A DNA stretch of 64,000 nucleotides, from positions 17,190-81,189 of the forward strand of contig JAFUKO010000045.1 in assembly GCA_017473555.1 (NCBI GenBank). The letters run 5' to 3'. The notes beneath the pieces are model-generated. The model ran no database searches, was not told where the DNA came from, and saw only the letters and a list, made by a program, of their open reading frames with translations. The stretch comes from Ruminococcus sp. Its GTDB lineage: Bacteria > Bacillota > Clostridia > Oscillospirales > Acutalibacteraceae. This document shows, piece after piece, positions 4,192-20,068 of this stretch (positions within the stretch are counted from its first letter, which is position 1; each line of letters starts with the position of its first letter). The translations under genes and the position numbers were made by a program.

Positions 4192-4662
4192 TTATTCACA
4201 TATCGCTTTGTACGGATTATTCTCGATGTAATTGAAATGTTCAATATAATCCTTTTCATTTCGAATTATGTGGTCAACAAAGGATTTTTGCCATATGCTA
4301 TAGCCAACCTGTTTTGAAACATATCCTTTCATCTGACTTATGACCGTCGAAATTGTAGGGGCGACCACTGGTCGCCCGTTCACATCACCCTCGATACTCA
4401 GCAAAAGGTGTATGTAATCTGACATCACAGCATAGTTGTCAATTTTAATTGTAGGATAATGGTTCGATATTTGGCGTATTGCGTCATCAACAATCTTTCC
4501 GTATTTTGACAGCCTCACCTGTTTATGGCGACCACTGGTCGCCCCTACATTATCCCACAACAACGATTTGCGGTCTTTTATACACACCGTTACAAAATAC
4601 ACACCCGGATTGCTATAATCGTAATCCTTTAAACGGATTCGTTTCCTCTTTCTTAAATCCAT
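4192..4662 (-). CDS. REP-associated tyrosine transposase (RAYT, Y1/IS200-like), HUH site altered
   Basis: This 156-residue protein has the Y1 transposase fold of single-strand HUH nucleases that mobilise REP palindromes. Visible features are YDYSNPGVYFVTVC (β1), KYGKIVDDAI, the region YAVMSDYIHLLL where the family has NHxH, WQKSFVDHIIRNEKDY, and YIENNPYKA with the presumed catalytic Tyr. The first His of the HUH pair is Tyr here (D-Y-I-H), so nuclease activity is doubtful. Two copies of a GGCGACCAcTGGTCGCC palindrome, in inverted orientation, lie inside the frame and encode the NVGATSGRH and NGRPVVAPT segments. The gene starts five bases after the stop of the upstream pbp gene and has no evident promoter of its own. 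Family assignment is secure; activity is not. Confidence 0.85.
   Translation of the reverse strand: MDLRKRKRIRLKDYDYSNPGVYFVTVCIKDRKSLLWDNVGATSGRHKQVRLSKYGKIVDDAIRQISNHYPTIKIDNYAVMSDYIHLLLSIEGDVNGRPVVAPTISTVISQMKGYVSKQVGYSIWQKSFVDHIIRNEKDYIEHFNYIENNPYKAICE
4355..4378. repeat. REP-like palindrome, copy 1 (inside RAYT)
   Basis: GTAGG is followed by a 9-bp perfect palindrome arm pair, GGGCGACCA and TGGTCGCCC, around a single C at 4368. It is the mirror partner of the copy at 4527-4548: 21 of 22 bases match in inverted orientation. Confidence 0.85.
4527..4548. repeat. REP-like palindrome, copy 2 (inside RAYT), inverted
   Basis: GGCGACCA and TGGTCGCC flank a single C at 4535, and CCTAC follows (the complement of the GTAGG tag of copy 1). 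The two copies thus form a BIME-like inverted pair bounding about 194 bases of coding sequence. Confidence 0.85.
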
Positions 4663-11343: not shown

Positions 11344-12351
11344 TCACTCACCTTGCTTATTCTTAATTTTATCCATAATAATTGTAATAACAATCGCGAT
11401 AGTTATAGTCCCTAGATAATAGAGCACGAGTTGAATACGTGGATTATTAACAATGATTGAAATTACGCTTCCTATACCCCAATGAAATAAAAACATAGGT
11501 AAAGAAATCTTACCCAAATAATCCGCAAATGTTGAGTTGAGTTTGTTCGTGAAACTCTGTTCAGATAACATAATTGTGGTTGCCACTGTAAAAAGCAAGA
11601 TGATTATATTATTATCATAATTCATTGCACACAAAATGATAACAGCAAAGAACGATCCAACTTCCACTAAAGTCAGCATCACCCTAAAAAGACCCTTAAT
11701 CTCAATATTTTTAATTAACTTAACCATCAAATAAACAAAAGTGCCCAGCATCAGATAAGCAAAGGCTCTCAGTAAATCGTTTGGCCAATCTCTTACAGTA
11801 TTCACACCAAATCTACCCAAATATAGCAACGGTACCAACCACGACAATATGTACCAGAAATCATGCCACTTGACAAACAAATACGCAACTAAAGGTAAAA
11901 TAATGAATACTGCAGACAAATACCAAATCGGTGCAAGTTCGGCAGGAGCTACACCGAAAGACGTTAAAAAGAGTGCCTCATACGGCAATTTACTGAAAAC
12001 TATAAAAATAGATTTCAAATCATAATGATATACGAACAAATTGATAAAATACTGAAGCACAATAGCGATAATCGCAAGTACAAAATAACTCTTGAATTTC
12101 TTAATATTGTAAATCATTATATTTTTAGACAAGTTATCTTTATCATCTTGTCTATAGTTATCAAAGTGTTTTGCGGTATAGTAGCCTGTCAAAATAAAGA
12201 AAAACTCTACCCAAACCCAGCCTAATTTAAACAGGTATTCACCGGAAAAGCCCATCACATAAACGTGGTGGGCCATAATCATTAACATTCCGACAAACCT
12301 CATTATTTCGACGCTACCTAATCTATGGTTTTTTCTTTGTTTTAAACTCAT
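11344..12351 (-). CDS. Acyltransferase 3 family membrane protein (sugar O-acyltransferase)
   Basis: This is a 335-residue multi-spanning protein of the acyltransferase-3/OafA group, which O-acetylates or succinylates cell-surface sugars. The N-terminal motif VEIMRFVGMLMIMAHH carries the conserved R and the catalytic-type His pair, and WVEFFFILTGYYTAKHF follows in the second helix. About ten membrane helices run to the C-terminus (LPMFLFHWGIGSVISII). The stop overlaps the next gene by the GTGA/AAATG region, so the two are tightly coupled. Acceptor sugar and acyl donor cannot be read from sequence. It is one of two intact AT3 genes plus one remnant in the operon. Confidence 0.88.
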   Translation of the reverse strand: MSLKQRKNHRLGSVEIMRFVGMLMIMAHHVYVMGFSGEYLFKLGWVWVEFFFILTGYYTAKHFDNYRQDDKDNLSKNIMIYNIKKFKSYFVLAIIAIVLQYFINLFVYHYDLKSIFIVFSKLPYEALFLTSFGVAPAELAPIWYLSAVFIILPLVAYLFVKWHDFWYILSWLVPLLYLGRFGVNTVRDWPNDLLRAFAYLMLGTFVYLMVKLIKNIEIKGLFRVMLTLVEVGSFFAVIILCAMNYDNNIIILLFTVATTIMLSEQSFTNKLNSTFADYLGKISLPMFLFHWGIGSVISIIVNNPRIQLVLYYLGTITIAIVITIIMDKIKNKQGE

Positions 12352-12395: not shown

Positions 12396-13307
12396 TTAAA
12401 TATTTGCATTCAACAAATCAAATATGCTATCACTATCGAGTTTATTTGCTTTGAGAACCTGACTATGCGTTCCAAATCCGGTACCAAACGTATGCAATCC
12501 TATTTTAGTCAACTTCTTGTTGAGTCCAAATTCTGCAATAACATCGGCAATACTGCTGCCTAAACCTCCATTAACATTATGTTCCTCCAAAGAGAACACC
12601 TTGTCAAATTTCTCTATCTCAGAAGCAATTGCCATTTTGTTTAATGGTGCAATAGTATGCACATTAACAATTTTAATTGTTTTTCCTGATTCATTAAGCT
12701 TTTGTTTAGCTTCTAAAAGCTGAGAAACAATGCTTCCTGTAACAAAAACAATCGCATCTTCTCCATCAGCTATTACTTCATTTTTGCCTATTTCAAAGTC
12801 AATTTCACCATCATAAATCTCTTTTTCTGCACTCATTCCCATACGTATATATACAGGTGAATCAATCTCATATGCAGCATTCACAGCTGCAATAAGTTCC
12901 TTAGGACTTGCAGGAGTAATAACTGTCAGATTCGGCATATTTTTTAGTAACGCCAAATCTTCTGTTGCATGGTGAGTAGCACCCAATGTTGACCAAGAAA
13001 GTCCGCTACCCATACCAACTATTTTAACATTTCTGTTCTGCATACAAACATCATCTCTGATAAACTCATAAGAACGATAGGCCAGAAACGCACCTGTTGT
13101 ATACACAAACGGAATCTTTCCGACGGCAGCCATACCTGCCGCTGCGGTAACCTGGTTGTTTTCGCTAATACCAAAGTTAATCACTCTATCAGGAAACTCT
13201 CTTGCAATCAGCTCATCATAATCTGTTCCACTGTCCGACAAGCAAGATACTACTCTGTTATCTTTGCGTATCAATTCATATAATGCACTCATGTAAGCTC
13301 TTTGCAT
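12396..13307 (-). CDS. Transketolase, C-terminal half (Pyr and C-terminal domains)
   Basis: A 303-residue protein equivalent to the second half of transketolase or DXS-like enzymes. The pyrimidine-binding domain (ALYELIRKDNRVVSCLSDSGT; then FPDRVINFGISENNQVTAAAGMA with the conserved Glu that activates ThDP) is followed by the C-terminal domain (~180-303; VFVTGSIVSQLLEAKQKL). The start overlaps the N-terminal-half gene by 19 bases, with AGGAGG ahead of it, so the halves should be made in equal amounts. Split transketolases are known in primary and secondary metabolism. In a glycan operon it probably transfers a two-carbon ketol unit to build or shorten a special precursor. Substrate unknown. 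Confidence 0.88.
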   Translation of the reverse strand: MQRAYMSALYELIRKDNRVVSCLSDSGTDYDELIAREFPDRVINFGISENNQVTAAAGMAAVGKIPFVYTTGAFLAYRSYEFIRDDVCMQNRNVKIVGMGSGLSWSTLGATHHATEDLALLKNMPNLTVITPASPKELIAAVNAAYEIDSPVYIRMGMSAEKEIYDGEIDFEIGKNEVIADGEDAIVFVTGSIVSQLLEAKQKLNESGKTIKIVNVHTIAPLNKMAIASEIEKFDKVFSLEEHNVNGGLGSSIADVIAEFGLNKKLTKIGLHTFGTGFGTHSQVLKANKLDSDSIFDLLNANI

Positions 13308-14128
13308 ACCCTGATTTCCTCCTCACTTATATCTAATTCAGACATAAAATATTTGAGTTCTTTTTTCTTTGGTAATCTCCAGTGCCATTTAGGATTATTC
13401 TCCATAATAGAAACACCCTTACCTTTTACTGTATTAAGTAAGACAACCTTCACTTTATCTGTATTATTATCTTTTAACAAACACTCTCTGATACTATCTA
13501 TATCATGACCATCAACCTCAAAAACCTCGCATCCGAAAGCCTCAAAGTGAGGTCTGATAGACTCTATTCCCATAACAGCCTCAAGAGTATCCATTTTCTG
13601 AACTTTATTACAATCAACTAAAACAATAAGGTTGTCAAGCTTCATATGGTGCGCAAACATAATCGCTTCCCATGTTGAACCTTCCTCGCATTCACCATCA
13701 CCCAAAAGACAGTACACTTTCTCTTTTCTGTTGTCCATCTTTTTTGCCTTTGCTATACCAACTGCAAAACTCAGGCCGTGACCAAGCGAACCTGTAGAGC
13801 ACTCGACACCCGGAGTATTCGGATAGCATGGTTCGCCACCTAATATGCTTCCCGGTTTAGAAAAGCTCATAAGCACATCTTTGTCAAAAAAACCAACTCG
13901 AGAAAGCTCATTATACAAAGCAAGGCTTCCGTGACCTTTACTTAGAATAAAGTAATCTCTATCTGGATCTTGAGGGTTTTCAGGGTTATATCTCAATACT
14001 CCTTGTTCATACAAAACGTACATCGTTTCTACGATAGAAAAAGCAGATGCAATATGTGCAACGCTAGCACTGTAAGCCGTCAGAAAAATGTCTTTTCTGA
14101 TTTTTTTTGTTAACATACTATAATCCAT
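13289..14128 (-). CDS. Transketolase, N-terminal half (ThDP/PP-binding domain)
   Basis: A 279-residue partner of the following gene. It has the diphosphate-binding domain with SKGHGSLALYNELSRVGFF, CSTGSLGHGLSFAVG, and the ThDP motif GDGECEEGS...NLIVLVDCN (GDG-X~27-N, ~145-180). KGKGVSIMENNPKWH near the end matches the transketolase N-half loop. The protein is normal in length for split transketolases. It lies 22 bases after the aldo/keto reductase stop. No other pentose-phosphate gene is nearby, so a specialised role in making the polysaccharide's acyl or sugar substituent is more likely than central metabolism. Confidence 0.88.
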   Translation of the reverse strand: MDYSMLTKKIRKDIFLTAYSASVAHIASAFSIVETMYVLYEQGVLRYNPENPQDPDRDYFILSKGHGSLALYNELSRVGFFDKDVLMSFSKPGSILGGEPCYPNTPGVECSTGSLGHGLSFAVGIAKAKKMDNRKEKVYCLLGDGECEEGSTWEAIMFAHHMKLDNLIVLVDCNKVQKMDTLEAVMGIESIRPHFEAFGCEVFEVDGHDIDSIRECLLKDNNTDKVKVVLLNTVKGKGVSIMENNPKWHWRLPKKKELKYFMSELDISEEEIRVCKELT

Positions 14129-14150: not shown

Positions 14151-14966
14151 TTAACCAAACAGAGTTAGTGTTTCCGAATCTAATCCTGATGAGCAAAGAT
14201 ACGGAAGATTATCTAAATACTTCATATCCTCTACACTAAGCTCAAAATCAAATATATCCAAGTTAGACGCCATACGTTCACTGTTTTTACTTTTAACAAT
14301 AGGAACCAGGTCATTCTGAATACACCATCTAAGACATATCTGAGCCGGCGATTTAAAATACTTTTCTGAAAGTATTTTAATCTCATCTTTTTTCAAAAGT
14401 CTACCTGAACCCAGTGGGCTCCACGCCTGCACCAAAATACCATTTTGCTTACAATAGTCAATAATACTCTTTTGCATAAATCCCGGATGGATTTCCACCT
14501 GATTAACAAATGGTTTTACCGTAGACTCTTTTAACAGTTCTTCTAACTGATTAGCTTTAAAGTTGCTGACTCCGATATGTTTTACAAGACCTTCTTCTAT
14601 TAATTCTTCCATCTGTTTCCATACACGATTGTTTATGTCTATCCAGTCATCGTGTACGGCTTTTGATGCAGGCCAGTGCATCAAATACAAATCTAAGTAC
14701 TCACAACCCAGATTCTGTATTGTGTTAAGACACGCTTGCCTTACATTATCTCTATCAGCATTCCACAACTTACCGGAAATAAACATATCATCTCTATCAC
14801 ACTGAGTATTCTTTATAGCCAGTCCAATAGACTCTTCGTTCATATACGCAGACGCAGTATCAAACATACGATAACCACAGCTAATCGCAGATTCAATTAT
14901 CTGTGTTGTATCAGCTGTATTTTTAAGTTTCCATGTTCCAAAACCAATCTTCGGCATATCATTCAT
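14151..14966 (-). CDS. Aldo/keto reductase
   Basis: A 271-residue NAD(P)H-dependent reductase of the AKR (TIM-barrel) superfamily. It shows PKIGFGTWKL, the catalytic Asp-Tyr region FDTASAYMNEESIG, the Lys in ISGKLWN, and the His in LYLMHWPASKA. The cofactor-binding C-terminal strand is IVPIVKSKNSERMASNLDIF. The start overlaps the end of the SGNH gene by eight bases (TGAATGATATG area). With the split transketolase downstream, a likely job is reduction of a keto or aldehyde precursor for the modification module. The substrate cannot be inferred from sequence. Confidence 0.9.
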   Translation of the reverse strand: MNDMPKIGFGTWKLKNTADTTQIIESAISCGYRMFDTASAYMNEESIGLAIKNTQCDRDDMFISGKLWNADRDNVRQACLNTIQNLGCEYLDLYLMHWPASKAVHDDWIDINNRVWKQMEELIEEGLVKHIGVSNFKANQLEELLKESTVKPFVNQVEIHPGFMQKSIIDYCKQNGILVQAWSPLGSGRLLKKDEIKILSEKYFKSPAQICLRWCIQNDLVPIVKSKNSERMASNLDIFDFELSVEDMKYLDNLPYLCSSGLDSETLTLFG

Positions 14967-16047
14967 TGCTGTTATCCTCTAAAATTTCACTTAATTTTTC
15001 TTTAGATGCATCGATATCTTTATGCCACTCATCAACATAATCATTCATAAATGCATATGCAGGATCATCCGATCTATCTGGCAGATCATAATTGTCTATC
15101 ATATATCTGCTTAAAAAATCGGTATATTTAGTAGCACCTAAAATATTAACATGTTTTTCATCATAAAAATCAGTGCTATAATCAATGCCCATTTCTTCGA
15201 TATAATCATTAGCATCTAAAAAATTGTAACCGTACTGCTTTATAATACCTTCAACATAGTTAAAGGTCTGTTTATGCTCCTCTTTTTCAAGGTATGGTGA
15301 TACCGTAAATAAAAATTCGCAATCGATTTGTTTAATATATTCAAGCAAATCAACCAACACCTTCTCGGTATCTTCGCTTACAGGTCTTTTATCTGTTGTA
15401 TTAAACTCACATTTTGTAAGTTCCTGGTTTTTAGCCTCTAAAAAGAAGCCGTTGTATTTTTCTTTATATATGCCAAGCATAAGCTTCATCTTATCCTTAT
15501 TCGGATAACCATGACCGTGGTATTTTATCAAATCAAGATAATACGAAAGCTTATCATCATCTTCGATACGTGTACCTACATTTTCATTGATGAAGCGGAT
15601 TTTATTCATTGACAATCTCATTCCGTCAAGTGTAGTGCGATATGTAAATTCTGAAGGTGGCTGACTACCATCGTTTTCAGCATCACGATACTGAAAGGCT
15701 CTTGCGTCAATGACGATAAGCTCAGGTGACTGAGTTTTAAGCACTTCCTCTATCATATGTTTATACAGCTCTGCTTGTACTCCGGCAGCTGCATAATCAT
15801 AGGACACAATTCCGTGGTTTTCCCATGCCTGAAGCGGTGCATAGTAAACAAATGTCGCACTACCACCAATATTCACTACATCTAAAGTGTTTTTCTTTTC
15901 TGCATACAATCCATAAATTCTGCTGGAATTACGAAGATCGCCCGGCTTTGATGTGTAGGTCAGAAAAACAAACACAAACGCAAATACAAGTATAAATGCA
16001 ACAATCCTAATTATCGGCTTTACGGATTTTTTTAATTTTTCTTTCAT
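14959..16047 (-). CDS. DltD/AlgJ-like SGNH-type membrane-anchored protein, MBOAT partner
   Basis: Start chosen at ATG 16047 (MKEKLKKSVK), four bases after the MBOAT stop, with GGAGGG upstream inside the MBOAT gene; this gives 362 residues. One N-terminal signal anchor (~13-33) is followed by an extracytoplasmic domain starting VVNIGGSATFVYYAPLQAW, the place of the GDSL-type block I nucleophile (GGSA), with a C-terminal DEKHVNILGATKYTDFL (Asp...His dyad). Such proteins accept the acyl group exported through the adjacent MBOAT channel and transfer it to a polymer (DltB-DltD, AlgI-AlgJ/X pairs). Its place directly after the MBOAT gene fits that role. Confidence 0.82.
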   Translation of the reverse strand: MKEKLKKSVKPIIRIVAFILVFAFVFVFLTYTSKPGDLRNSSRIYGLYAEKKNTLDVVNIGGSATFVYYAPLQAWENHGIVSYDYAAAGVQAELYKHMIEEVLKTQSPELIVIDARAFQYRDAENDGSQPPSEFTYRTTLDGMRLSMNKIRFINENVGTRIEDDDKLSYYLDLIKYHGHGYPNKDKMKLMLGIYKEKYNGFFLEAKNQELTKCEFNTTDKRPVSEDTEKVLVDLLEYIKQIDCEFLFTVSPYLEKEEHKQTFNYVEGIIKQYGYNFLDANDYIEEMGIDYSTDFYDEKHVNILGATKYTDFLSRYMIDNYDLPDRSDDPAYAFMNDYVDEWHKDIDASKEKLSEILEDNSNE

Positions 16048-16051
16048 TAGA

Positions 16052-17596
16052 TTAGAACCCTCCGTAAATAAAATCAGCTGGTACAAAACCAGGTCCATAT
16101 ACACCAAACATCAGTGTAACACCAATCATAGCAATCAGAAGAGCAAATCTGAATATATGATTACAACTATTGAACTTTTCTGCTACATCTACATTATTGT
16201 ATTTCAGGTAATCGACAATCGCAACACCAAGCATTGTAACAACTATAACTGCCCATTTAAAAAGCACAGCGTACAGCGTATGATCTCCCATTATCACTTC
16301 AGAAATAAAAGGATCAACTACAGTTGGATCAAACTTAAAAATATCAGCGATAAGAGCAAAGCTTTGAGTAAATGATGGTGCTAAAGCAAACAGCCACACG
16401 ATACACATCATAAACAATGTTCTCAAGGACTGGAAAATATGAAACCATTTTGACTCAACATTAATCTTTAATTTGTTTCTGAGCTTTACAAAGCTCTCCT
16501 CTAAAAGCTCACTTGATGTAAGATAAATCCAAGGCAGAATTCCGGCAGCAAATATGTACTTATATGAAGCTCCATGCCATATACCTATGATTACCCACAA
16601 TATCAGTATTGCGAGAAAAACAGGTATTTTCTTACCAAGTTTCTTTCCAAATTTCTTCTTCGACTTTTTATTAAGTTTCTGAAAAGCCTCGGATTTCAAA
16701 AGCGGATACATTATATAATCCTTGCCCCAGCTACCAAGTGTAATATGCCACCTACGCCAGAATTCAGACAGGTTTTTGGAGAAGAATGGACTCTCAAAGT
16801 TTTCAGGAAGTTTTACCCCATATAACTTAGAAGCACCAATAACTATGTCCATACAACCTGAAAAATCGCAATAAATCTGCAGAGCATAAAACACTACTCC
16901 GATAACAATGAATGGTCCCGAGTACACATCTGTATCTGCAAAAATTGCATTGACAATAATAGCAAGATTATCAGCAATTACCATCTTCTTGAGTAATCCA
17001 TAAACTACTCTGTGAAATCCCTTGAATATATTGTCCCATTCAAAATCGCCATTATCAAAAAACTCTGATTTCATCTGTGTATATCTGATGAAAGGGCCTG
17101 AAATCAGACAAGGATAATAGCACGAAAACAACATTACCTTAAAGAAGTTTTTCTCGGCAGGTATTGTTGTCCAATAAACGTCAACCAAATATGAAATCAT
17201 TGACAGGGTGTAGTAAGATATACCAATCGGTGCTATAAGATTAATAGTTCCTAGATGGAAGTCGATGTTGAACAATTCTCCAAACCCGTTGATCGTATTA
17301 GGAATGATATTAATGTATTTTAATAAGAAAAGCATTGCTATATTGAACGCCAATGCAATTACAATTGTTGCTTTTTTGGCTTTTTGTGTTGTCAGCTTTT
17401 CACCTATGAGTCTTGAACTTATGTATATCGTTGCAACTCCAAACACAAAATATCCTGCTACTTCTATGCTGGCAAGAGAAAAGAACGCTAAAGAAAAAAC
17501 TAACAGCGAAATCCATCTGTATTTTTTAGGAAACAAGTAATAAACTATTGTGGTCAATCCTAAAAACACAAAGAAATTTAGCGATGTAATGGTCAT
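16052..17596 (-). CDS. MBOAT family O-acyltransferase (DltB/AlgI-like)
   Basis: A 514-residue polytopic membrane protein of the AlgI/DltB MBOAT group. It opens with TSLNFFVFLGLTTIVYYLFP, has PIGISYYTLSMISYLVDVYW and the RYTQMKSEF/FFDNG region. The FFSKNLSEFWRRWHITLGSWGKDYI block (~265-290) and the catalytic-type His in LWVIIGIWHGASYKYI (~330-345) follow. The family takes acyl groups from a cytoplasmic thioester donor and passes them across the membrane to a surface polymer. An acyl carrier protein is encoded two genes upstream, as in dlt operons (DltC-DltB), but no DltA-like adenylation gene is present. The FkbH-like gene may replace it. Confidence 0.92.
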   Translation of the reverse strand: MTITSLNFFVFLGLTTIVYYLFPKKYRWISLLVFSLAFFSLASIEVAGYFVFGVATIYISSRLIGEKLTTQKAKKATIVIALAFNIAMLFLLKYINIIPNTINGFGELFNIDFHLGTINLIAPIGISYYTLSMISYLVDVYWTTIPAEKNFFKVMLFSCYYPCLISGPFIRYTQMKSEFFDNGDFEWDNIFKGFHRVVYGLLKKMVIADNLAIIVNAIFADTDVYSGPFIVIGVVFYALQIYCDFSGCMDIVIGASKLYGVKLPENFESPFFSKNLSEFWRRWHITLGSWGKDYIMYPLLKSEAFQKLNKKSKKKFGKKLGKKIPVFLAILILWVIIGIWHGASYKYIFAAGILPWIYLTSSELLEESFVKLRNKLKINVESKWFHIFQSLRTLFMMCIVWLFALAPSFTQSFALIADIFKFDPTVVDPFISEVIMGDHTLYAVLFKWAVIVVTMLGVAIVDYLKYNNVDVAEKFNSCNHIFRFALLIAMIGVTLMFGVYGPGFVPADFIYGGF

Positions 17597-17613
17597 ACCT
17601 TACCCCCGATAAT

Positions 17614-18045
17614 CTATTTTAAAACACCTATCTTCATTTTACTTTTACACACTTTTACTCCACTAGTGTCAAAAATATCTACTTTTAGAACGATATATCG
17701 AAATCTTTCGTCCTTGTCCTTTACTTTTGCAACAACACGTAGCGGACATTTTGATACAAAAACAGGAGCAGCAAAAGATGTTTCTATAGAATGAATCAGG
17801 CTATACTTACCCGGCATATATACACCGGCAAGTGTAGATAATACTGCTGCAGTTAACTGCCCATACACTACTTTTTCAGAGTAACCAAGCTCATTGGCAT
17901 AATCCAAATCATTATGCAAAGGGTTAGTGTCACCTGAGATTTCTCTAAACATCTGCATTTTGTTCTCATCTATATCGTACATAAACTCGACAACATGCCC
18001 TATTTGTATTTCGTCAAACAAATACTCATTCATAGACTTATCCAT
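17614..18045 (-). CDS. MaoC-like hot-dog fold protein ((R)-hydroxyacyl dehydratase family)
   Basis: A 143-residue single hot-dog domain. The hydratase signature is FREISGDTNPLHNDLDYANELGYSEKVVYGQ-like (~33-63), with the catalytic Asp (GDTNPLH) and His. The family acts on (R)-3-hydroxyacyl- or enoyl-CoA/ACP thioesters. The start overlaps the ACP gene by eight bases, which argues for a carrier-bound substrate. It could dehydrate or hydrate an acyl-ACP, or act as a thioesterase or a shaping subunit. No ketosynthase is encoded nearby, so a full fatty-acid cycle is unlikely. Confidence 0.85.
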   Translation of the reverse strand: MDKSMNEYLFDEIQIGHVVEFMYDIDENKMQMFREISGDTNPLHNDLDYANELGYSEKVVYGQLTAAVLSTLAGVYMPGKYSLIHSIETSFAAPVFVSKCPLRVVAKVKDKDERFRYIVLKVDIFDTSGVKVCKSKMKIGVLK

Positions 18046-18283
18046 TAACTCTGGCTAAAATAGTATGCACCATTTCACCAACATTTTTCATTTCAACAAC
18101 TTCGCCCATGTTAAATTTGATTCCAAACTTGTTTTCAACAGCAACTACCAAATTGATGTGCTCAAGGCTGTCCCAGTCCTCGATATCGTTAGCTGTAGTT
18201 TCTGGTTCTACATGGATATCCTCATCGTCAAATACATCCTGAAAAACCTCGTCAAGCATTTCGTAAATTCTTTCTTCTGTCAT
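18038..18283 (-). CDS. Acyl carrier protein
   Basis: An 81-residue acidic ACP. The phosphopantetheine site is DSLEHINLV (Ser near residue 38) in the usual four-helix context (IEDWDSLEHINLVVAVENKFGI). GGAGGAAT precedes the ATG. It sits between an FkbH-like gene (four bases upstream) and a MaoC-like gene (overlapping). It therefore probably carries the acyl group used by the MBOAT/SGNH pair rather than serving general fatty-acid synthesis. Confidence 0.93.
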   Translation of the reverse strand: MTEERIYEMLDEVFQDVFDDEDIHVEPETTANDIEDWDSLEHINLVVAVENKFGIKFNMGEVVEMKNVGEMVHTILARVNG

Positions 18284-18286
18284 TTT

Positions 18287-20068
18287 TTATTCCTCCACAT
18301 TAATATATTTGTTTTTATTTTCATAGTCGTTTACGACTAATTCCCACCTTGTGTTACCTTGTTCATCTTCACTGATTTTTTCAAAACCATGTAATGAATA
18401 AAACTCTTTTACCATTGAATTTTTAGAAGTTGGATAATAGTTACCGTAGACTTTTCTGATGTTATTCTCTTTTGCTTTATCGATAAGCATATCCATCATT
18501 GCAAATTCCATATCTCGTTTGAGAACTCTGCAACTCATAATCCACAGCTCTATATCAAGAGCATCACCTTCAATATGTCCGATTACTACCGATACAACAC
18601 CATTATCGCCGAATTTATCAGTAAGTTTGCCATATAGGGTAATATACTCATCGCTGTTTGCAACTTGCTCAATATCAGCCTGTGAGTATCTTTTGGTAGT
18701 CAGATTAAACTGATTACTCTTGTTTGTAAGCTGAGCGATTCTCTGCATATACATCGGTATAAAGCTCTCAATAGTAGCATTCATATTAAGAGAAAGAAGA
18801 TAATCACCATAATTCTCAAATGTAGCGAGCATTTGCTTACGCTGAGCATTTTGCTTGTACATATTGACTTTTTTCAAATCATCAGCAGAAATACTCACAC
18901 ACTCAAAATACCCAGAACGGTCGATAGCTCTAAGATAATATTCAGGTTTATTTCCGATATCAGGTGTGCTGACACTGCTGAATTCTTGGTTAACTATCTC
19001 ACGTTCTGCAGGATTATCGTCGACAAACACCAAACTATCTATACCTAGATTAAGCTCATTTGCAATCTCATACAGATTTTTTGATTTTGGCTCCCAGTTT
19101 GCCTTAATAACGATAAAGTCGTCTTTGCTAAGGACCGATTCAGGATGCGCCAAACCTGCAAGAGCATTTTCCATTTCATTCTTGCTGTTTACATTGAGAA
19201 GAATACCCAGGTCCTTATGTTCTTTAATATATTCCTGAAATTCTGTAAACGCCTCACTCTGTGCGGTTTCCTGTCCGATAGCGATATTTTCCACACCATC
19301 GTCGCCGATAATTCCTCCCCACAAAGTGTTATCCAAATCCAGTACCAACGCCTTTTTGTTCTTACCGTAAATCGCTTTAATAATATTAGAAACATTAAAA
19401 CTCAGGTAAGGGATTGCACGCAGACACAGTGCATATTTGTACATAAACCAATAGAATTCATCAGACCATTTTTCTAGTCCATACTGAGAAGCCTGATAGT
19501 TAATATCGTTTATGTAGAAATTATCATTTTCTTGTGCATATTGAGCGAATAACAGATTCAGTCTGGTCACAAAATTAACTTTACCGTGAATATCTGTTGC
19601 ATCTTTATTTCCCAGCAATCTATAGTGAGGATACTCGAAGTTGTTCTGAATAATAGTACAGTTATATCTGTTTCTTAACGCTGTCCACACCTGATTAAAT
19701 CTTGCAAATTCACTTTCTAACTTTGCATCAACATCTTCAGCTGTATCAGTGATTTTTGGCAGATTTATTATGTTTCTGAAAGATGTATGAATAAAAATTA
19801 CATCCGGTGCAAATGCATCCAATTCTTCATTGCCAAAAACAGCATCCTCATAAAACTTGTTATACTCTGACTCATAAAACTCAGGTTTTATTCCCTGATC
19901 AAGAAGGAACAGCTCGAGCACAAGTTTGATATCGTTTGTAGTAGATCCACCTAAAATTGCAATCTTTTTCTCTATAAAACCACAGCTTGACTCAAGTAAT
20001 CTCCTCTTGATTTTCTTCTTTTTCTGGATAATAAAATCAGGGTCAAAAGGGTATTTAAGTTCTCTCAT
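18287..20068 (-). CDS. FkbH-like HAD superfamily protein (acyl/glyceryl-ACP synthase type)
   Basis: A 593-residue protein with the three-part FkbH layout. An N-terminal SGNH-like region (~30-190; KIAILGGSTTNDI, VIFIHTSFRNI) is followed by a central HAD domain with KALVLDLDNTLWGG (DxDxT) near residue 242, then VFVDDNPAERE. A C-terminal GNAT-like domain (~440-580; ELWIMSCRVLKRDMEFA, FYSLHGFEKI) completes it. FkbH-type enzymes (FkbH, OzmB, Bryp-type) dephosphorylate 1,3-bisphosphoglycerate and load glycerate onto a carrier protein. The next gene is an ACP four bases away. By homology it would make glyceryl-S-ACP or a related acyl-ACP, but the exact acyl group is inference. Confidence 0.88.
   Translation of the reverse strand: MRELKYPFDPDFIIQKKKKIKRRLLESSCGFIEKKIAILGGSTTNDIKLVLELFLLDQGIKPEFYESEYNKFYEDAVFGNEELDAFAPDVIFIHTSFRNIINLPKITDTAEDVDAKLESEFARFNQVWTALRNRYNCTIIQNNFEYPHYRLLGNKDATDIHGKVNFVTRLNLLFAQYAQENDNFYINDINYQASQYGLEKWSDEFYWFMYKYALCLRAIPYLSFNVSNIIKAIYGKNKKALVLDLDNTLWGGIIGDDGVENIAIGQETAQSEAFTEFQEYIKEHKDLGILLNVNSKNEMENALAGLAHPESVLSKDDFIVIKANWEPKSKNLYEIANELNLGIDSLVFVDDNPAEREIVNQEFSSVSTPDIGNKPEYYLRAIDRSGYFECVSISADDLKKVNMYKQNAQRKQMLATFENYGDYLLSLNMNATIESFIPMYMQRIAQLTNKSNQFNLTTKRYSQADIEQVANSDEYITLYGKLTDKFGDNGVVSVVIGHIEGDALDIELWIMSCRVLKRDMEFAMMDMLIDKAKENNIRKVYGNYYPTSKNSMVKEFYSLHGFEKISEDEQGNTRWELVVNDYENKNKYINVEE

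Follow-up and report, generated by a model that had tools for sequence, protein, structure and literature searches.

The window analysed here, a 64,000-nucleotide stretch of Ruminococcus sp. DNA from a draft genome of 1.98 Mb in 137 contigs, contains five minus-strand genes inside a long polysaccharide cluster, as read from the translations. They encode an FkbH-like protein, an acyl carrier protein (ACP), a MaoC-like protein, a DltB-like MBOAT and an SGNH protein. The data suggest that these proteins form a carrier-protein-fed pathway that O-acylates the polysaccharide of the same cluster, a reading assigned a probability of about 0.7. Export acylation fed by FkbH and ACP is considered highly likely, and glycerate is a likely starting unit. 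A glyceryl group or a derivative of it would be transferred to a polysaccharide, presumably the cluster's own. The genes of the unit are:

18287..20068, minus strand: FkbH-like HAD-IIIC and GNAT protein, 593 aa (TIGR01686, PF21211, 3slr)
18038..18283, minus strand: ACP with a DSL phosphopantetheine site (PF00550, above cut-off)
17614..18045, minus strand: MaoC hot-dog hydratase/dehydratase, putative tailoring enzyme (PF01575, above cut-off)
16052..17596, minus strand: DltB-like MBOAT with its own C-terminal FIYGGF (PF03062, DltB model)
14959..16107 (likely start 16047), minus strand: membrane-anchored SGNH protein, DltD/PatB-like (predicted fold)
14151..14966, minus strand: aldo-keto reductase, AKR (PF00248)
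13289..14128, minus strand: transketolase N-terminal half, TKN (PF00456)
12396..13307, minus strand: transketolase C-terminal half, TKC (PF02779 and PF02780, above cut-offs)

Organization of the unit

The genes are closely packed: FkbH and ACP lie 3 bases apart; ACP and MaoC overlap by 8; MaoC and MBOAT are separated by 17; and MBOAT and SGNH are separated by 4, counted from the likely SGNH start. The SGNH open reading frame (ORF) was called from a TTG, and the methionine at 16047, which gives a protein of 362 aa, is kept in 35 of 40 homologues. A preliminary description of this DNA had reported five adjacent genes with gaps or overlaps of under 20 bases, which is correct provided that SGNH starts at 16047 and not at the upstream TTG. 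The span given there, 14959..20068, places the five genes properly but leaves out AKR, TKN and TKC of the same unit. As the SGNH stop overlaps the AKR start by 8 bases and the split transketolase comes next, the unit runs past that span.

Recurrence of the gene set

A total of 108 FkbH-centred stretches were mapped. Of these, 28 came from a search of 200 family genomes (27 genomes besides the window's own, one giving two), and 80 were the best 80 of 122 confirmed in a scan of 84,980 genomes, one per species, with six peptide patterns, a scan that reaches close relatives only. Thirteen stretches (L047-L059), with FkbH below 45% identity, were dropped, leaving 95 loci (L032-L046 and L060-L139), in which genes were counted from five before FkbH to eight after it.

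Within this span, ACP is found in 91/95 loci, MBOAT in 74/95, and MBOAT together with SGNH or DHHW in 69/95; ACP, MaoC, MBOAT and SGNH all occur together in 19/95. The co-occurrence check proposed with the preliminary description thus came out in its favour. Such repeated joint occurrence across many loci means that the gene set does not reflect chance. FkbH matches were obtained in 28/200 family genomes, and MBOATs of this kind, which are common without FkbH, in 338/394 order genomes.

In Ruminococcus, a stand-alone MBOAT-DHHW-FkbH-ACP operon was observed in L109, L114-L116, L123, L125, L127, L128, L130 and others; in L115 a phosphoesterase and an RlmB-like methyltransferase come after it. 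This operon looks like a core envelope pathway rather than a capsule locus.

FkbH and the carrier protein

The FkbH-like protein scores 278.7 bits against TIGR01686 (cut-off 146.65) and also passes the PF21211 cut-off; its sole PDB match by sequence as an FkbH is 3slr (E 8e-53). An alignment of 100 FkbH proteins, the window's included, has 57 columns with conservation of 97% or more. These include D244, D246, T248, S295, K328, D350, D351 and S512-C513-R514, residues with putative functional roles. The AlphaFold2 model, made with nine sequences, has a pLDDT of 64.7 and is poor in the middle, so only its C-terminal GNAT part was used. In fold comparison this part resembles GNAT enzymes, and the first part of the model matches 3slr.

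The carrier protein shows equally consistent conservation, with DS[LMIV] present in 91/91 ACP ORFs of the mapped loci. A search of the window's genome found no second ACP with the query used, which is read as low sensitivity for a divergent AcpP rather than as absence.

FkbH with a free-standing ACP is proposed to form glyceryl-ACP from 1,3-bisphosphoglycerate in tetronate and methoxymalonyl pathways (PMC7489565, PMC4979870), for instance by Mad7/Mad8 and Mad14/Mad12 (PMC7489565). By the same chemistry, it is proposed here that FkbH loads D-glyceryl from 1,3-bisphosphoglycerate onto the ACP. In those pathways the glyceryl-ACP feeds polyketides, whereas here membrane acyltransferases follow. 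An FkbH-domain gene, cj1302, is also described in the flagellar glycan locus of C. jejuni (PMC7099621).

This precedent raises the alternative that FkbH in the window serves a methoxymalonyl- or tetronate-type natural product while MBOAT-SGNH simply acetylates. Such pathways are the known FkbH-ACP setting (PMC7489565), and a Methylosinus plasmid (L207) provides a polyketide case of this kind. However, no ketosynthase or O-methyltransferase is present among the unit's genes, and MBOAT recurs with FkbH-ACP in two phyla, which leaves this alternative very improbable. Methoxymalonyl or tetronate use of FkbH had been considered as the principal reading and was ruled out by the missing partner genes in the unit.

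The membrane acyltransferase and its SGNH partner

The window MBOAT passes the PF03062 cut-off. Its only NCBIfam match is DltB (TIGR04091) at 140.8 bits, under the cut-off of 375, and it matches solved DltB chains (PDB 6bug, E 9e-19; 8jem, E 3e-18). Aligned by eye, its RWH and WHG are in register with DltB and the catalytic histidine is matched; the active residues named for DltB are His289 and His336 (PMC11035591). The C-terminus is FIYGGF, an FXYXXF acyl-tyrosine shuttle motif. This motif closes 69/74 related MBOAT ORFs of at least 380 aa, a count that includes L047 and L056 from outside the 95 loci. In PatA, the tyrosine of the FXYXXF motif is acetylated (PMC12148441).

At E 0.01, neither Pfam nor NCBIfam gave a match for the SGNH protein. 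Its AlphaFold2 model (mean pLDDT 84.0) predicts an SGNH-like core and, at the N-terminus, a long helix. The top PDB match of this model is DltD 6pfx (E 1.3e-4, probability 1.00, TM-score 0.33, 12% identity), closely followed by generic SGNH esterases, and PatB 7tjb is at rank 32. Of the SGNH serine and histidine, S83 is kept in 39/40 homologues and H319 in 40/40.

These comparisons bear out several assignments in the preliminary description: an FkbH with intact DxDxT and GNAT parts, from the family match, conserved residues, 3slr match and GNAT fold; an ACP with a DSL site; a DltB/AlgI-type MBOAT, from its family, structural homologues, histidine and terminal motif; and an SGNH protein with S83 and H319 kept, possibly DltD/AlgJ-like by the model's best match.

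Relation to known acylation systems

Among the MBOAT-SGNH systems in the discussion passage of PMC12148441, Dlt (DltA, DltC, DltB, DltD, DltX) alone is credited with a carrier protein. The unit shares with it a carrier protein, a DltB-like MBOAT and the acyl-tyrosine shuttle motif; a possibly DltD-like SGNH protein and export acylation of an envelope polymer would be further likenesses. It differs in other respects. FkbH stands where Dlt has the adenylating DltA; the acyl group would be a glycolysis-derived hydroxyacyl rather than an amino acid; the shuttle motif closes the MBOAT, whereas in Dlt it is located on DltX (PMC12148441); and tailoring enzymes and a capsule-type locus are present.

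No DltA-like gene was found in the unit with Pfam and NCBIfam. Among 20 picked FkbH-bearing genomes, several of them drafts and 18 with MBOAT in the span, none has DltA (TIGR01734) above its cut-off, as compared to 2 of 14 control genomes; weaker adenylation-domain matches occur in 19 of the 20. The DltC model NF003464 gives the window ACP 16.6 bits, under its cut-off of 68. As DltA, DltB and DltC all fall short at the curated level, the unit is not a Dlt member, and it is filed as an MBOAT-SGNH kind that works like Dlt without belonging to it. Since DltA stays under its cut-off in the 20 FkbH-bearing genomes, FkbH may be regarded as doing the charging in DltA's place; at the level of sequence, this agrees with the substitution that the preliminary description had put forward.

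The PatA/PatB, AlgI/AlgJ/AlgX and Wss-type O-acetylation systems also pair an SGNH partner with an MBOAT that has a C-terminal FXYXXF. A carrier protein is absent from them, and their donor is said to be acyl-CoA, as shown for PatA (PMC12148441). Native (high-acyl) gellan offers a likeness on the product side, being a bacterial polysaccharide with L-glycerate esters (PMC9104527, PMC4392319); the passages of PMC9104527 on this point name no glyceryl gene.

Among the open-licence full-text matches listed, with subscription journals mostly outside them, none describes FkbH with MBOAT-SGNH in glycan acylation, in keeping with the earlier remark that a described surface-glycan system with exactly this set is not known. 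The co-mentions of FkbH and MBOAT among these matches are aeruginosin-family papers.

MaoC and exchangeable cassettes

The window MaoC has PhaJ-type PDB matches (5cpg, 3ir3, 1iq6; R-specific hydratases). It carries GDTNPLH, aligned to the PhaJ-type chains, with the Asp-His pair present, so that its earlier description as a MaoC-like hot-dog protein holds. Among its relatives, GDxNPxH is found in 23/28 ORFs, and the remaining 5 keep D-x-N-x-x-H as judged by eye. MaoC is an optional tailoring gene, present in 27/95 loci. A search with MaoC alone (E at most 1e-20) matched 1/398 phylum genomes (the window's own) and 3/94 relatives of the L067 genome (its own included). FkbH and ACP lie beside MaoC in all four matched genomes; since two of these are the query genomes, the search adds two new cases of MaoC beside FkbH-ACP.

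Four arrangements were observed: no tailoring gene; ACP-VOC-MBOAT; ACP-MaoC-SDR-MBOAT; and MaoC with AKR and split transketolase. Neither MaoC nor VOC is within the span in 58/95 loci, and FkbH-MBOAT is commoner without MaoC than with it. The form without a cassette is often MBOAT-DHHW-FkbH-ACP, notably in Ruminococcus. VOC is present in 10/95 loci, 8 of them in the order ACP-VOC-MBOAT. MaoC and SDR occur together in 18/95, adjacent in 17; in L081 they are not adjacent and the SDR is of another type.

The near-twin loci L083 and L086 illustrate an exchange. Their FkbH, ACP and MBOAT are 99.2%, 97.5% and 92% identical. L086 has MaoC and a full SDR (244 aa) and no VOC; in L083 there is a VOC, MaoC is missing, and the sole SDR-like ORF is 169 aa long, 92% identical to the L086 SDR and probably a remnant. 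An FkbH tree of 95 rows was built from the window and all but one of the 95 loci, the one omitted being below 540 aa; its well-supported branches require a minimum of 7 changes for VOC and of 7 for MaoC+SDR. This tree was made by a quick method, its long branches are flagged, and 12 rows have no cassette label. The exchangeable tailoring cassettes probably set the acyl group.

The SDR is FabG-like but under FabG cut-offs. The NCBIfam match of the VOC is methylmalonyl-CoA epimerase, weak at 33.8 bits (cut-off 114.95), and its PDB matches are glyoxalase-like (2qh0, 3hdp). The VOC may be an epimerase that inverts C2 to L-glyceryl, or a glyoxalase-type enzyme.

Two alternatives concern the group that MaoC acts on. 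In the first, plain glycerylation, the pathway ends with glyceryl, either in the D form or in the L form where VOC epimerises it, and MaoC has a different substrate or is accessory. If the FkbH reading holds, unmodified glyceryl would be the product in the 58 loci without MaoC or VOC, set against 27 loci with MaoC, 10 with VOC and none with both; the gellan esters also fit. Against it, the MaoC Asp-His pair is kept in 28/28 ORFs, MaoC is accompanied by SDR in 18/27 loci, and the two new MaoC relatives, found without selection for FkbH, also adjoin FkbH-ACP. Plain glycerylation is unlikely. In the second, MaoC and SDR or AKR perform fatty-acid-type chemistry and yield a short 3-hydroxyacyl group (e.g., 3-hydroxybutyryl-ACP), with FkbH acting separately. 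The resemblance of MaoC to R-hydratases and of the SDR to FabG speaks for it. However, there is no ketosynthase among the adjacent genes, the unit has one ACP gene, and FkbH-MBOAT is more frequent without MaoC; this alternative is quite improbable.

In the Erysipelotrichaceae-type loci L064, L076, L078, L084 and L089, FkbH-ACP-MaoC follows sialic-acid-type genes (NeuB and NeuC/WecB-like; NeuA-type checked in L078 only) without SDR, and SGNH-MBOAT is within the span in L078 only. Dinucleotide tracts occupy the 5' end of the coding sequence in several genes, with AC in MaoC, either AC or AT in SGNH, and AG in an AT3-type gene, at L067:12083, L071:14720 and L086:14751; L093:15894; L074:9305 and 10367; and L079:6891. 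The MaoC tract is the only (AC)9 run in the L067 genome. Six overlapping tract matches in the L071 genome are as expected from one tract, and the ATG nearest MaoC in L071 is out of frame. Tract matches are many in four other genomes, and no such tracts were found in the window's genome. From sequence, these tracts suggest slippage switching of acylation genes.

The aldo-keto reductase and split transketolase

The AKR matches PF00248 with 185 bits, and its closest NCBIfam model is DkgA, under the cut-off. TKN matches PF00456 with 137 bits, and the two transketolase halves carry the thiamine diphosphate and pyrimidine domains. The window has its AKR and split transketolase linked to the acylation operon. 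The order FkbH-ACP-MaoC-MBOAT-SGNH-AKR-TKN-TKC is kept in L032 (genome G016), the only close copy found, and the window and L032 form one branch on the FkbH tree. TKN is 74% identical in G016; the next best among 398 family genomes, beyond the window's own, is 47%. As a genome query, TKN is swamped by other transketolases (388/398 genomes match). As the L032 contig ends at FkbH, its sugar genes are not comparable with the window's. A MobL relaxase-like ORF at the far end of that contig (L032:3-1061) hints at mobility.

The AKR is a candidate for reducing a keto-acyl-ACP or the transketolase product, and together with the transketolase pair it may form a branched acyl group on ACP or an unusual sugar. 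There is an even chance that AKR and the split transketolase serve to produce a sugar, such as a nucleoside diphosphate-keto-sugar given a two-carbon branch and reduced by AKR. They would then be downstream only by operon structure, which is compatible with polysaccharide acylation by the other genes. Transketolases normally shift two-carbon units between sugars, and the cluster holds genes taken, from their translations, to be RmlA/RmlB-like, PglF-like and, in two cases, DegT-like. Against this, AKR overlaps SGNH and the eight-gene order is kept in L032.

An acyltransferase-3 protein (PF01757) is encoded at window positions 11344-12351, on the downstream side of the transketolase pair, so that there may be acetylation as well. 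Elsewhere in the window, at 4192-4662 on the minus strand, a small ORF resembles a REP-associated tyrosine transposase by eye.

Alphaproteobacterial plasmids

Plasmid records matched by FkbH numbered 114 in one search and 117 in another. Eight were opened, and L204, which is unannotated, was left out. MBOAT lies beside FkbH in 3 of the 7 remaining stretches (L202, L203, L205), and FkbH-ACP-MBOAT is thereby seen on plasmids of two alphaproteobacterial species. In S. meliloti ml66, VOC is followed after 382 bases by MBOAT-409 aa protein-ACP-FkbH, with capsule-type genes about 4 kb on; strain RCAM1750, whose record begins shortly ahead of MBOAT, shares the order from that gene onward. On a Rhodobacteraceae plasmid, the order is ACP-FkbH-MBOAT-358 aa protein-VOC. 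The MBOATs of both species end in an FXYXXF motif. From their position, the 409-aa protein, annotated as a TonB-dependent receptor, and the 358-aa protein would be SGNH proteins; neither has a BLAST match to the SGNH references. The ml66 VOC is weakly related to the Bacillota VOC in a small reference set (25.6%, E 2e-9), and the Rhodobacteraceae VOC has no BLAST match to it. In S. meliloti 1021, the FkbH match (NC_003078.1 631214-632895) is in two BLAST pieces, unlike strain 2011, possibly owing to a frameshift.

Proposed pathway

Gene content, residues, folds, recurrence and the cassette differences of near-identical loci are seen in sequences or models, and a pathway can be drawn from them that would involve five steps. 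First, FkbH would take glycerate from 1,3-bisphosphoglycerate, probably hold it on a conserved cysteine (likely C513) and pass it to the ACP. Second, MaoC would dehydrate glyceryl-ACP to 2-hydroxyacryloyl-ACP, which would tautomerise to pyruvoyl-ACP. Third, lactyl-ACP would be formed by a reductase, which is an SDR in most of the MaoC relatives and probably the AKR in the window. Fourth, the DltB-like MBOAT would carry the acyl group across the membrane, onto the tyrosine of its own FIYGGF. Finally, the DltD-like SGNH protein would take the group on its serine and esterify the exported glycan.

The first and the last two steps derive from the named families, with the MBOAT and SGNH steps modelled on PatA/PatB and Dlt. 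The loading modules of bryostatin and tartrolon, in which FkbH, a dehydratase and a ketoreductase form a D-lactyl starter, offer a parallel for the second and third, although the open-licence matches listed included no FkbH-lactyl precedent; there the activities are fused in a polyketide synthase module, whereas MaoC and SDR or AKR are separate here. For loci with MaoC and SDR, lactyl is the favoured candidate for the final group, at balanced odds; for the window, lactyl is doubtful.

Several observations weigh against the carrier-fed pathway or parts of it. The action of MaoC and AKR on glyceryl- and pyruvoyl-ACP is derived from chemistry and the polyketide precedent, 9/27 MaoC loci have no SDR in the span, and the transketolase pair is not accounted for. 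Strict exclusivity of VOC and MaoC+SDR was considered, as both occur in 0/95 loci, and was rejected; L211 has VOC, MaoC and SDR in a row, so the two are not strictly alternative. MBOAT is missing from the span in 21/95 loci, some on short contigs. The loci were chosen for FkbH, several contigs end close by and many of the gut genomes are related to one another, so the 95 loci do not count as independent events. For MBOATs that carry a fused hexapeptide, acyl-CoA is the stated donor (PMC12148441), so ACP as the MBOAT donor rests on gene order. In the remaining plasmid stretches, FkbH occurs in other company: FkbH-ACP-MaoC-SDR with no MBOAT match in 15.7 kb (L200, Subdoligranulum); and, with no MBOAT beside FkbH, FkbH-ACP-WcbI (L201, Niveispirillum), FkbH with sugar genes (L206, Maritalea) and FkbH-ACP in a polyketide cluster (L207).

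A broader and improbable extension is that bacterial glycans bear modular, switchable hydroxyacyl codes. A shared FkbH-ACP glyceryl core would be converted to L-glyceryl by VOC or to lactyl by MaoC+SDR. In the window, pyruvoyl-ACP and a two-carbon ketol from transketolase, reduced by AKR, would give a larger branched acyl group. A second carrier-fed MBOAT-SGNH machine would export the group, and (AC)n slippage in the MaoC of some relatives would switch it. The transketolase step in the window is the boldest part of this proposal.

Biological significance

If the carrier-fed pathway is correct, it would constitute a second carrier-fed MBOAT-SGNH system, supplied by a glycolytic intermediate and equipped with exchangeable tailoring enzymes. 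It is probably a counterpart of the D-alanine system with different chemistry, in which a three-carbon piece from sugar breakdown is remodelled on the carrier. It is also a candidate route to glycerate esters such as those of gellan, and it suggests a role for genes annotated as 'HAD-IIIC phosphatase' in glycan clusters. If true, it would point to a way in which gut Bacillota, and Alphaproteobacteria in some cases, may put glyceryl- or lactyl-type esters on their surfaces.

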